DNA of 61,262 nt, taken from NCBI RefSeq assembly GCF_027706725.1, contig NZ_JAQFWQ010000037.1:1-61262 (forward strand), written 5' to 3'. The notes beneath the pieces were generated by a model. The model was given only the letters and a program-made list of their open reading frames with translations, was not told where the DNA came from and did not search any database. Positions 3,834 through 7,726 of this stretch are shown here, piece by piece. Origin of the DNA: Nocardiopsis endophytica (GTDB lineage: Bacteria > Actinomycetota > Actinomycetes > Streptosporangiales > Streptosporangiaceae). The stretch's first letter is position 1. Each line of letters begins with the position of its first letter. The position numbers were made by a program, and so were the translations under genes.

Positions 3834-3929
3834 TCAGCACTCGATGACGTTGACCGCCAGTCCTCCTCGGCTGGTCTCCTTGTACTTGTCCATCATCTCC
3901 CGGCCGGTGTCCCTCATAGTGCGGATGAC
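3834..3929 (-). pseudogene. Displaced native 3' end of sdaA (left attachment junction)
   Basis: Read leftwards these 96 bases encode [20 protein letters not shown] then [11 protein letters not shown] and a stop. This aligns without gaps to the last 31 residues of the intact L-serine dehydratase encoded at 7631-9043. Joining it to the gene body at 7727 recreates a natural [20 protein letters not shown] sequence. I therefore read it as the host's original gene end, separated by insertion of the element at 3930-7726. Similarity to the right copy stops exactly at 3929/7726, where both share the dinucleotide AC. Confidence 0.8.
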
Positions 3930-4033
3930 AGGGCGAGTGCTACGGTTAACAGCGCATGTCAGGGCACACCACGGCGTGTCGCTCGTGCATGATCAGATCC
4001 GTCCAGTGCTCTGGGCTCACGGGATCCGTCTTC

Positions 4034-5674
4034 TCACTCGGAGGGTTGGCGAAGGCGCGTCACTGTGATCTTGTCCCCTTCCAAGCATCGGAAGTGAGCC
4101 TCGGGGTCCAAAGTGCCTCCAGCGGCAGATTCAATTTCGGATCGGTTTATCAACTCCATGTGTGAGGATCCAATTCTCACGGGGCCGAACTGGAACACAT
4201 GTTCCCCTACGGGGATAGTGAGGCTCTCAGAAACAACGAAAATTGCCCCTCGATTATCGGGGCCAAACTTTTCAAGGAAGTCGCTGATCTCTGCGTGGTT
4301 GACCTTCCAGGGGAGTCCCTGGTAGATCCAGTCTGCAGACCCTTTGGTGGCCAAATCTCTAGCCATCTCGATGGTGTACAGGTCTTCGATTGTCAAATCT
4401 CCGGGAGTCCTGAAGGACTGCTTGGTTGCTTTCTGGAGGTCATCCAGAGCAATAACCAGTCGGGCCGAGAACTTGAATTCTTCGAATAGTTCACTATTAA
4501 ATTCCTTTGCCTTGTCCTCGAGATGTCCAAACTTTAGGGAGATGTGGTCCCCTTCGAGTGCCGATAAGATGAACTCGCATATGGGGCGAATAGCGAACGG
4601 GAAAAAGCCTTGCATGGCGGCGAATTTTAGATTTATATCTGCGCGTCCGTGGCGTGCTCCTGGGTGGTCAAATCTGGCAGTGACCGTGATCAAGCCTGAC
4701 GTGTCACCCCCTGAGAGCATGATTCCCTTCCGCCCAATCCCCTTCCTTGTAAACTGAAGAGGGAGGCTCTGTGGAGGTGGGCTCGCTTCAGAGAAAGAGA
4801 CCTCCAGAGTGGCTGGCAAGGGCAGACCGTCACTACTGTCGATCGGTAGGATATCCAGGTACTCGTACTTGTCCTCCTCGTTGAAATTGAGGAGCTTCTT
4901 GGTTTCCTCGGAGGCTTGAATATCGATCCCCTGGATGTAGCGTCCGGGGATTCTACATCCCTCACCGTAGTCAAGTGCATTTTGCAGGGAAGCTTGAGCT
5001 GCTCGGGCGCCCTCATCCTGTGCGGGAAAAATGAACGTGGGAGTGGCATGTATCGGATCCATTTCAGAGGCTCCGGGAAACTTCTCTCTGAGGAAGAAGG
5101 AAGCCACTCCATCGCGAACTTCAAGGTCTACTGCATAGCATGGAGAAAGCTCATCAACGCGCTTGCTGAGACCCTTTAGGCGCTTCTCGGCATCAGAAAT
5201 ACCGTTGCTTAGGGCAGAAACCTCATGGTTTAGCTCGCTGGCGCGTGTCAGAAGATCATAATCTGATCCCTCGACGTAGCGACGAATGTCCTCATGCAAA
5301 GAAAATTGTCCGTCGAGCCAGTCTCTTCCTCGCCATTCTAGGATAATGTCCTTATGAAGCTTCCGGAGGTTGTTGAACCAAACTATCTCCTTGGGTGATG
5401 GATCAAGTGGTTGGATTAGGATCCAACACTTGGGGTGATGTGTGCTCGCGTTCTTGAGCGACTTCTTTATTTGACTCTTCTGTTGGCTTGTGAGGCGTTT
5501 GGAGAATGATTTTATCTCGAAGATCGTCAAACCTTCGGGGGTGTCCAAGAAGATGTCTTTACCATCGTCCCCGCCTGAGCCGTCGACCCCTTGGGCCGAA
5601 GGGTGAAGGCGTCGAATGAGTATCTTTACCGCACGTTCGATCCTTGCTGGATCGAGGTTGCTCCAGTTGATCAT
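4034..5674 (-). CDS. PD-(D/E)XK nuclease-like protein with large unknown C-terminal region (element cargo)
   Basis: With the ATG at 5674 the protein has 546 residues. Residues 1-75 carry a restriction-endonuclease-like core: helix glutamate E13, then GSGGDDGKD with D40, then E53-x-K55 in IFEIKSF, followed by a Gln/Lys-rich helix. This is the Mrr-like PD-(D/E)XK arrangement that cleaves DNA. Residues 150-180 form a short coiled coil; the remaining 350 residues match no family I know. The frame stays open upstream to 5893, so alternative starts at 5710 or 5728 are possible; 5674 fits where related nuclease domains begin. It is the only cargo of the element, which suggests but does not prove a defence role. 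Confidence 0.6.
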   Translation of the reverse strand: MINWSNLDPARIERAVKILIRRLHPSAQGVDGSGGDDGKDIFLDTPEGLTIFEIKSFSKRLTSQQKSQIKKSLKNASTHHPKCWILIQPLDPSPKEIVWFNNLRKLHKDIILEWRGRDWLDGQFSLHEDIRRYVEGSDYDLLTRASELNHEVSALSNGISDAEKRLKGLSKRVDELSPCYAVDLEVRDGVASFFLREKFPGASEMDPIHATPTFIFPAQDEGARAAQASLQNALDYGEGCRIPGRYIQGIDIQASEETKKLLNFNEEDKYEYLDILPIDSSDGLPLPATLEVSFSEASPPPQSLPLQFTRKGIGRKGIMLSGGDTSGLITVTARFDHPGARHGRADINLKFAAMQGFFPFAIRPICEFILSALEGDHISLKFGHLEDKAKEFNSELFEEFKFSARLVIALDDLQKATKQSFRTPGDLTIEDLYTIEMARDLATKGSADWIYQGLPWKVNHAEISDFLEKFGPDNRGAIFVVSESLTIPVGEHVFQFGPVRIGSSHMELINRSEIESAAGGTLDPEAHFRCLEGDKITVTRLRQPSE

Positions 5675-5893: not shown

Positions 5894-7615
5894 CTATGCA
5901 TCTGGGGCGTGAGTCCCCGTTGCTGGAGTTGCTTGTTCCAAGAAGGGGTCATACCTATGGGGGTTCTTCGCTTGCCACTCGGCAGACTGCTGCTGTCGCT
6001 GCTCTGGTGAAGCTTGGAAGTCAATCTCTTCCATGGGGACGCCTGTAATGCGAGTGGTGCCCTCGCTTGCAAGTTCGACCCGAAGTGCCCAATCTTCGGC
6101 CTCAGGGCTTCCGGGATCGATCCCCGTCGCTTGGGTGTACAGCTCTTCGAGATCTCTGCCTGAGAACCGGAAGGCGGGTTCTGGGTGGCTCGTCTGGTTG
6201 GTGTCGCGGAACCACACCTTGAAGTCGTGGTTCCGAAGGAAAGCACCTTTCTCCTGGTAGGTCATAGCGTTCCAGGAGTCCCCGGCAGTCACGCCGGTAC
6301 CAACGAATTTGATTTCCTCAGGGCGAGTGGGAAGGGCTTCGAGTGCTTCTCGTCGCTTTTCCAACTCTTCGATCTGTTTGCGCGCTGCATCCGCTGCTCG
6401 GGAACCAGGTTTGAGGGTCGTCATGTTGCCGATAAGGTTTTCTAGCGCCTCATCAACACTGGCGATGTCTCGTGAATAGTCGATGCCAGGGACGACGACA
6501 CGTTCCTTCTTCTCAAGGTCTCCGACCAGGAAGATGACATAGTCAGAGACAGCCTTCTCGATGGTCCCGGACCGGACCATCTTGTTGGCGCAACGTCCTT
6601 CAGGGAGAGAGTAGGAAGAGCATCGGTAGTAGGGGCGTGTCCCGCTCTGGAAGTGGTGCAGGGGTCGGGAGCAGACATCGCACATGGCGACCTGTGCGAG
6701 CATCGAGCCGCCCTTTCGGTTCTGCGTCTTCTTACGGCTCGCCCGGTCCAAGCACTCTTGAAGGTCGTTCCAGCGGGAAGGGGCGATCAGAGGTTCAGCC
6801 TTCTGGACGACCATGCCGGTCTGTGCGTTGCGTGTGGTCTCTCCCGAATGGGTCTCGTACTCTCCGAGTAGGGCACGGCTCCGAAGGACCTTGATGATCT
6901 GCGACGTGGTCCACTTGGCTCCCTTCGGTTCCTTGCCCATGCGGATACGGTGGGCGTCGGATGAGGTAGGGACTCCGCGCTCGGTGAAGTCGTCCCTGAT
7001 TCGGGCGACGGCTTCATGGTCGTCAACGACCCGACGAACCAGTTCCAGTACCCGGGAGGCGGTGTCCGTCTGGCTCTCGGTGTCCTTGACGAGATACCAG
7101 CCGTAGACCTCGTTCCGAACCTCCTTGACCGGACGGTACCCGTACGGCGGGATACCGCCCTTCCACCGACCGCTCTGGATGACGGCGTTGATCCCGTCCT
7201 GCGTCCTCCCCTTAATGGTCTTCAGCTCGAACTCAGCGAAGGCCGCGAGGATCTTTGCGAGAAGCTGACCCATGTCCGAGGTCAGATCGATCCTGTCATC
7301 CAGGAAGACGAGTTCGACTTCGTTCTTCTCAGCCCACTCCAGGAAGTCAACGAAGCCCTTGAGGCTTCGCGCCAACCTGTCGAGCTTCCAGAAGGTCAGT
7401 ACGTCGAAGTCCTCTGGACGCTTGAGCCACTCGCCCAGCTCCGGACGCTCCCACGGTGGGACGTCCCCGGAGACGTCCACGTCCACGGCCTGACCCGCGA
7501 CGACGGCATCGTTCAGGTCCGCCCACGCCTGCCCCTTGGAGAGCTGGCGCTCGACCGAGGCGGACTCGTGACGGTGTTTGGACAGTCGGGCGACCTTGAC
7601 AACCCTCTTGACCAT
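5894..7615 (-). CDS. Large serine recombinase (integrase of the sdaA element)
   Basis: This 573-residue protein has the N-terminal resolvase catalytic domain with the RLS motif (S12 nucleophile) and the DRLARS motif (R80, R83). A recombinase domain with the SGRWKGGIPPYGY signature follows around residues 148-160. A zinc ribbon has C312-x2-C315 and C332/C342, and a coiled-coil region lies near residues 400-440. This is the architecture of phage-type large serine integrases, which recombine short attP and attB sites through a two-base core. The gene starts 16 bp from the restored sdaA stop, next to the right att junction, as usual for such integrases. No recombination directionality factor is recognised nearby. 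Confidence 0.92.
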   Translation of the reverse strand: MVKRVVKVARLSKHRHESASVERQLSKGQAWADLNDAVVAGQAVDVDVSGDVPPWERPELGEWLKRPEDFDVLTFWKLDRLARSLKGFVDFLEWAEKNEVELVFLDDRIDLTSDMGQLLAKILAAFAEFELKTIKGRTQDGINAVIQSGRWKGGIPPYGYRPVKEVRNEVYGWYLVKDTESQTDTASRVLELVRRVVDDHEAVARIRDDFTERGVPTSSDAHRIRMGKEPKGAKWTTSQIIKVLRSRALLGEYETHSGETTRNAQTGMVVQKAEPLIAPSRWNDLQECLDRASRKKTQNRKGGSMLAQVAMCDVCSRPLHHFQSGTRPYYRCSSYSLPEGRCANKMVRSGTIEKAVSDYVIFLVGDLEKKERVVVPGIDYSRDIASVDEALENLIGNMTTLKPGSRAADAARKQIEELEKRREALEALPTRPEEIKFVGTGVTAGDSWNAMTYQEKGAFLRNHDFKVWFRDTNQTSHPEPAFRFSGRDLEELYTQATGIDPGSPEAEDWALRVELASEGTTRITGVPMEEIDFQASPEQRQQQSAEWQAKNPHRYDPFLEQATPATGTHAPDA

Positions 7616-7630
7616 GCATGTCCTTGTCTG

Positions 7631-7726
7631 TCAGCACTCGATGACGTTCACGGCCAGCCCGCCGCGACTCGTCTCCTTGTACTTATCAGACATGTCACGG
7701 CCTGTGGTGCGAACCGTCTCAATCAC
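7631..7726 (-). repeat. Element-supplied replacement 3' end of sdaA (right attachment junction)
   Basis: These 96 bases encode residues 440-470 and the stop of the functional L-serine dehydratase. They are an imperfect copy of 3834-3929: longest identical stretches 18 bp at the stop codon end and 14 bp at GTCTCCTTGTACTT, with mostly synonymous differences elsewhere. Codons such as ATT, GTT, ACA, TCT and GAT here are unlike the rest of sdaA but like the element. So this segment probably arrived with the element and restores the C-terminus. Confidence 0.75.

Follow-up and report, generated by a model that had tools for sequence, protein, structure and literature searches.

Prophage e14 reportedly recombines by means of a tyrosine integrase at a long shared core. 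In Escherichia coli K-12, e14 inserts into icd after codon 362, supplies 54 C-terminal residues with small changes and leaves the native end of the gene on its far side (PMC11148124). Islands reconstitute the gene they enter in many cases (PMC12884075), and IMEs and CIMEs inserted at gene ends are described as leaving the protein almost unchanged, with decayed forms that keep att sites and pile up; toxin-antitoxin and restriction cargo is also known from them as a group (PMC5704250). In staphylococci, SCC elements with serine-type recombinases insert into a single gene, rlmH/orfX, where composite arrays and recombinase-less pseudo-elements occur (PMC7029136). Large serine recombinases with single target genes have been catalogued, and neither sdaA nor serine dehydratase appears in the main text of that work (PMC10083194). 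In the literature searched, sdaA was not found as an integration target, and nothing pertinent by title turned up on attP sites within coding regions.

The window analyzed here is a stretch of 61,262 nucleotides from Nocardiopsis endophytica (contig 37 of a 7.26-Mb assembly in 211 contigs). Its minus strand, on which all features given below are located, carries a co-directional run of a glycine riboswitch (12240..12343; Rfam RF00504, 58.2 bits), gcvT, gcvH and glyA (all three named from translations alone, without database search), sdaA (9043-7631), a recombinase gene (7615-5894) and a cargo gene (5677-4034). The predicted sdaA product is a full-length L-serine ammonia-lyase (678 bits with NCBIfam sda_mono), and a paralogue with 64% identity is found on a different contig of the same genome. 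Past the cargo gene, an sdaA 3' end occurs once more, this time with no gene body attached (3929-3834). With a probability of about 0.83, sequence comparison suggests that the ~3.8-kb stretch from about 3932 to 7727, which interrupts the final 31 codons of sdaA, represents a small integrative element with a large serine recombinase that has its target within the sdaA 3' end and brought a replacement tail along. By comparison, the last 31 codons of the host have been shifted to the far end of the element, the element tail has taken their place, and the sdaA frame remains open with its terminal cysteine.

As in e14, the native end sits on the far side and the element supplies a new one; the window element differs in its serine recombinase, its target gene and a tail that seemingly bears a recombinase motif. 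The use of one gene by serine-type recombinases, the composite arrays and the recombinase-less units are reminiscent of SCC, but the target is sdaA and not rlmH, and one recombinase is present in place of a ccr pair. Against the CcrB model this recombinase reaches 74.3 bits at a cut-off of 900, which leaves it outside SCC. The almost unchanged target protein, the piling up of elements with their att sites and the type of cargo recall IMEs and CIMEs, but no transfer gene was recognized in the window element: Pfam and NCBIfam revealed no virion, conjugation or mobilization genes between the junctions, just recombinase and cargo. Gene-restoring islands are thus already known; new are the sdaA target, the probable dual use of the tail and the small units described below. 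The initial annotation had stated that most serine-integrase insertions inactivate their target. This agrees with site-specific serine-recombinase IMEs, described as disrupting dispensable genes (PMC5704250), but not with islands, which often reconstitute the gene (PMC12884075).

The two 96-bp sdaA ends that the initial annotation had reported are indeed present at 3834-3929 and 7631-7726. They match at 70/96 bases and 27/32 codons (stop counted), while the stranded tail, shuffled in 200 trials and each time placed at 2000 random window positions, never matched at more than 47/96. Joining 7727 to 3929 restores, as proposed, an ordinary sdaA reading, GAC AAG GTC ATC CGC. The stranded tail (3834..3929, 31 codons plus stop) is the native one: it is 92.5% identical to the tail of G003 and 91.4% to that of G005 (genomes of the family set are designated by G numbers), both from the same genus. 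G005 also provides the uninterrupted sdaA that had been called for, followed by the same downstream region. In the alignments to G005, the gene body side (7630-9725) reaches 94.1%, the stranded tail 91.7%, and the regions 3263-3431 and 1414-3209, downstream of the G005 tail, 81.7% and 91.2%, respectively. The host part of the gene, codons 1-438 plus the AA of codon 439 (7728..9043), belongs to a complete reading frame. A displaced native end, an in-frame end supplied by the element and an empty site in relatives, as expected of a gene-restoring island, are therefore all found here.

The present tail (7631..7727), in turn, is 92.5% identical to that of G046, 78.5% to that of Nonomuraea candida NRRL B-24552 (G233), and no more than 77.4% to any of the 22 further tails in the comparison. 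A tree of 25 tails places it with these two, which represent two genera other than that of the window, and the stranded tail with G005 and G003. As the tail groups with other genera while the body fits its own genus, the tail is foreign and the gene is not. Correspondingly, its codons are element-like, as had been noted earlier: the new tail has a GC3 of 0.75 and the recombinase one of 0.73, compared to 0.98 for the sdaA body and 0.84 for the stranded tail, and none of 407 body stretches of 31 codons has a GC3 as low as the new tail. The claimed spacing of C408 and C470 was also confirmed. The two lie 62 positions apart, with 61 residues between them, as do the aligned cysteines of PDB 4rqo in an alignment spanning sdaA residues 1-470; we take this structure to be the Legionella enzyme and its last cysteine to bind the cluster. 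The terminal cysteine is thus retained in the replacement tail.

The reverse assignment, with a native present tail and an imported fragment at 3834-3929, is very improbable. The finding that speaks for it concerns G046, whose sdaA end is identical to that of the window over 33 residues; the genome has one sdaA tail, no element was found beside sdaA, and a related recombinase sits on another contig. The initial annotation had looked to such element-free carriers of the present tail as counter-evidence, and G046, from another genus, partly fits this description. All five other genus genomes searched have native-type Thr-Met ends (that of G001 is cut by the contig end), two of these members share 91-93% identity with the stranded copy and match its far flank, and the present tail is low in GC3. 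The G046 tail without an element also counts against the integrative-element reading itself. We read it as a scar of such an element, although it could also be a source. A search of 341 family genomes with the replacement tail, at a cut-off that proved too strict, found only G046 and missed the window's own genome, so that no absence elsewhere follows from it.

The recombinase (5894..7615, 573 aa) combines three domains, Resolvase, Recombinase and zinc ribbon, all above their Pfam cut-offs, as is characteristic of large serine recombinases. Its residues R10, S12, Q24, D79, R80 and R83 fit by position the catalytic residues listed for Bxb1 (PMC12884075) and are common to the recombinase of N. 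candida. The latter, 45% identical and from another genus, occupies the same place in the same orientation, so that the predicted presence of a related recombinase beside sdaA ends was borne out. There, a tandem glycine riboswitch precedes sdaA, the gene ends in a Thr-Val tail with an extra residue stretch and then a retained terminal cysteine, the recombinase starts 43 bases past the stop (15 bases in the window), and a native-type tail is stranded 10.5 kb further on. The stronger claim that the same integrase is always found next to sdaA holds for N. candida but not for the rest of 39 loci with related recombinases. In the flanks retrieved for these, only L009 and L092 are adjacent to sdaA, and both are one and the same N. 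candida locus; we thus rejected sdaA as the general target of this recombinase family. With two, the number of element loci is small, which weighs against the integrative-element reading. Scanning genome contigs with the recombinase alone gave no confirmed locus, and a two-row recombinase alignment gave eight, N. candida among them. A search of IMG/VR yielded no match. Phage records matched 1010 times, all below 60% identity and the best-ranked at 31-33%, and among 5000 plasmid matches listed none covers 80% of the query.

Where would the recombinase have joined element and chromosome? The initial annotation placed the crossover at a GT/AC core within codon 440. The AC shared at 3929/7726 is present, but both the arms and the junctions of relatives indicate that it is probably not the crossover. 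More likely is the AA formed by the first two bases of the Lys439 codon (7728..7729, TT on the plus strand). Two observations favor it over GT: of all axes tried, the best is AA with one additional base, and the majority of 15 junctions from relatives agree. These 15, out of 20 stranded junctions, were aligned on the AA of GAC-AA-G; G309, G287, G338, G231 and G074 were left out, as their junction lies elsewhere or no register was found. AA is read at 12/15, the exceptions being G014 (AC), G262 (AG) and the window (CT). An (A/G)(C/T)GG motif occurs at +10 in 12/15; of the remaining three junctions, that of the window has it one base off and one from G151 three bases off, and G204 lacks it. As the arms are partly related by descent, the 15 junctions are not independent facts. 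The arms appear roughly symmetrical around AA with an ACGGT motif 10 bases out. With all axes tried, those of the window match best on the AA axis after a one-base left shift (18/25; for 300 shuffles put through the same search, the 95th percentile was 14 and the maximum 17), compared to 5/25 on AA and 8/25 on GT without a shift. That the window fits the AA axis solely with this shift speaks against the preferred reading, as does the borderline symmetry in N. candida, where 14 arm positions agree on AA, 15 at the optimum of this axis, and 4 on GT (95th percentile 14, maximum 16).

The left junction (3930..3931) reads CT-GTCATC in the window and AA-GGTCATC in G049, G011 and G279 (one G049 junction reads AA-GATCACC). 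With CT where relatives mostly have AA and one base missing beside it, we take this junction to carry a small lesion. The adjoining left arm (3932..3950) contains the ACGGTT motif. When the loci retrieved up to this step and the whole window were searched for the pattern, arms of this type occurred only at stranded-tail junctions, namely in G049 (twice), G011, G279 (twice), G151 and the window.

The motif of the left arm returns in the replacement tail. Among 50 distinct complete sdaA ends from the loci retrieved up to this step (paralogues included; cut ends and ends not starting with Asp-Lys or Asp-Arg dropped), residue 444 is Met in 47, with ACNATG at +10, and Val in three, with ACGGTY at this position. 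The Val444 tails are those of the window, N. candida and G046 only. As these ends carry ACGGTY at +10, the motif common to the left arm is here read as Thr-Val. The replacement tail is therefore probably coding sequence and attachment half-site at once: it would double as the right half of attP (ACGGTT at +10 from AA in the window), its Thr-Val displacing the constant Met.

Restoration of the gene would spare the host and place recombinase and cargo directly behind sdaA, in reach of operon read-through. A simple scan of 3300-9300 found no promoter-like site and, on the minus strand, no terminator-like site, so that read-through of both genes from the riboswitch operon is possible. The cargo gene encodes 547 aa (4034..5677); its start codon is our choice, and the open frame extends to 5893. 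Its product matches nothing in Pfam or NCBIfam and gives weak PADLOC matches to PDC-M58A and LmuA, and relatives occur in 18 other genomes of the 341. A D-x-G-x-D ... K pattern is constant across 12 aligned cargo sequences. With this 12-sequence alignment, a fold model reached a pLDDT of 76 (37, and thus unusable, from the sequence alone), and its best fold matches were Avs4 (E 0.005) and AF1548 (E 0.02), none below 0.001. Pattern and model suggest that the cargo is a probable PD-(D/E)xK nuclease, which possibly acts in defense.

Another reading concerns the present state of the element and is compatible with its proposed mode of integration: it may be a relic that integrated as described, is no longer able to leave, and is kept because it repairs the gene or because its cargo is useful. 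We consider this a little less probable than its opposite. The junction reads CTG where AAGG is expected, there are two genes only and no directionality factor was recognized among them, and no close copy of the recombinase is present in the five other genus genomes searched. However, both genes are open, and the recombinase keeps its putative catalytic residues.

To see how often sdaA ends are stranded, a 40-aa tail query was compared with 341 family genomes, of which 314 matched at E 0.01, and genomes with two or more matches were inspected, 45 of them in a second listing. An extra sdaA tail downstream of the gene, on the same contig and strand, occurs in 17/341 genomes, the window's own included: G000, G049 (two), G014, G011, G233, G238, G204, G279 (two), G151 (two), G312, G270, G309, G287, G338, G231, G262 and G074. 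The matches in G262 and G074 are weak, and contig ends may conceal further cases. Between gene and stranded tail, Fic/DOC toxin-antitoxin pairs were detected by Pfam in G011 and G238 and by similarity in G279 (twice), G151, G270 and G262. Other toxins are ParE (G151), YoeB (G309) and a BrnT-like protein slightly below the cut-off (G014). G049 harbors type I modification genes and a weakly HEPN-like protein, a relative of which occurs in G204. No gene could be named between sdaA and the stranded tail in G312, G231 and G074. G338 carries a tyrosine integrase, to which a fragment in G287 is related, and was set aside as another kind of element.

In G204 and G231, where gene-like sequence flanks the stranded tail, a plain duplication is possible. 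Such homology-driven cases (the G204 flank resembles the sdaA body) lend some plausibility to the idea that the window tail was acquired from a foreign sdaA through homologous recombination, or arose by partial gene duplication, with the recombinase as a bystander. We nevertheless regard this as improbable: to its left, the stranded tail is flanked not by sdaA but by an arm also seen in other genera, two recombinases of one kind start 15 and 43 bases behind sdaA, and the exchanged stretch begins at the same codon in the window and in N. candida.

Several stranded tails border recombinase-free toxin-antitoxin units of ~0.7 kb. Between G011 and G279, which belong to two genera, the 0.7-kb interiors are 90.2% identical over 693 bases, but the adjoining sdaA bodies 77.7%. 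The same excess is seen for G011 and G151 (89.9% versus 77.8%), G238 and G270 (92.5% versus 85.5%) and G270 and G262 (91.5% versus 84.0%), but not for G238 and G262 (90.1% versus 89.4%) or G279 and G151 (91.7% versus 94.3%). Across the two kinds of unit, interiors are 71-72% identical and more divergent than the bodies. These comparisons indicate that some of the units have moved between genera. Both tails around a small unit are of host type and alike, whereas the two elements with a recombinase have exchanged tails; the pairs are 100% identical in G011, G014 and G238, 98.9% in G204, 96.8 and 93.5% in G279, 95.7 and 84.9% in G049, and 94.6% in G151. Gene conversion after arrival is the simplest account of this likeness; a duplication mechanism is also possible.

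We tentatively propose, as a view for which the odds are somewhat against, that the sdaA 3' end may be a cassette-collecting site in the family. Units of ~0.7 kb, mostly toxin-antitoxin pairs, which lack a recombinase and possess only the window-like left half-site, would be moved in trans by recombinases of this kind, comparable to pseudo-SCC elements or integron cassettes. The element in the window would represent the autonomous type, in which coding sequence provides one half of attP and expression comes from the glycine riboswitch operon. Small units with arms but without a recombinase make movement in trans a testable question. In the window's element, a single piece of DNA seems obliged to act as a half-site for the recombinase and to encode an enzyme's C-terminus; this natural example shows a price, Val in place of a constant Met, that is open to testing. 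With it, sdaA joins the genes whose ends collect mobile DNA.

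Two relatives carry stranded sdaA ends whose junction lies deeper in the tail (loci L086 in G287 and L087 in G338). Because a tyrosine integrase is present in G338, at L087, a second class of recombinase seems to use the sdaA 3' end as a target as well. A tandem arrangement was found in G279, where two identical 700-base toxin-antitoxin units follow one another behind sdaA, with sdaA tails at 1434, 2233 and 3032 of locus L081 (in the orientation of the stranded-tail listing).

Behind the stranded tail of the window (3263-3833), short reading frames resemble, as judged by eye, remnants of antitoxin genes. 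One ends in ...SAELNRKLAQ, and the antitoxin of the relative G011 ends in ...SAELNRRLAQ, again compared by eye. It looks as if units had landed there earlier.

At both recombinase-bearing elements, a glycine riboswitch heads the sdaA gene run, at 12240-12343 in the window and at 5188-5382 in the Nonomuraea candida locus L070, and the element lies at the end of the run. The N. endophytica genome also encodes a second, 64% identical sdaA with a native-type end (contig 21, 71695-73065).

The N. candida sdaA tail (L070, 8218-8352) contains the additional residues GDAKLGVNII ahead of the terminal Glu-Cys. This addition could be of consequence in a tail of which the last cysteine presumably extends to the active site.
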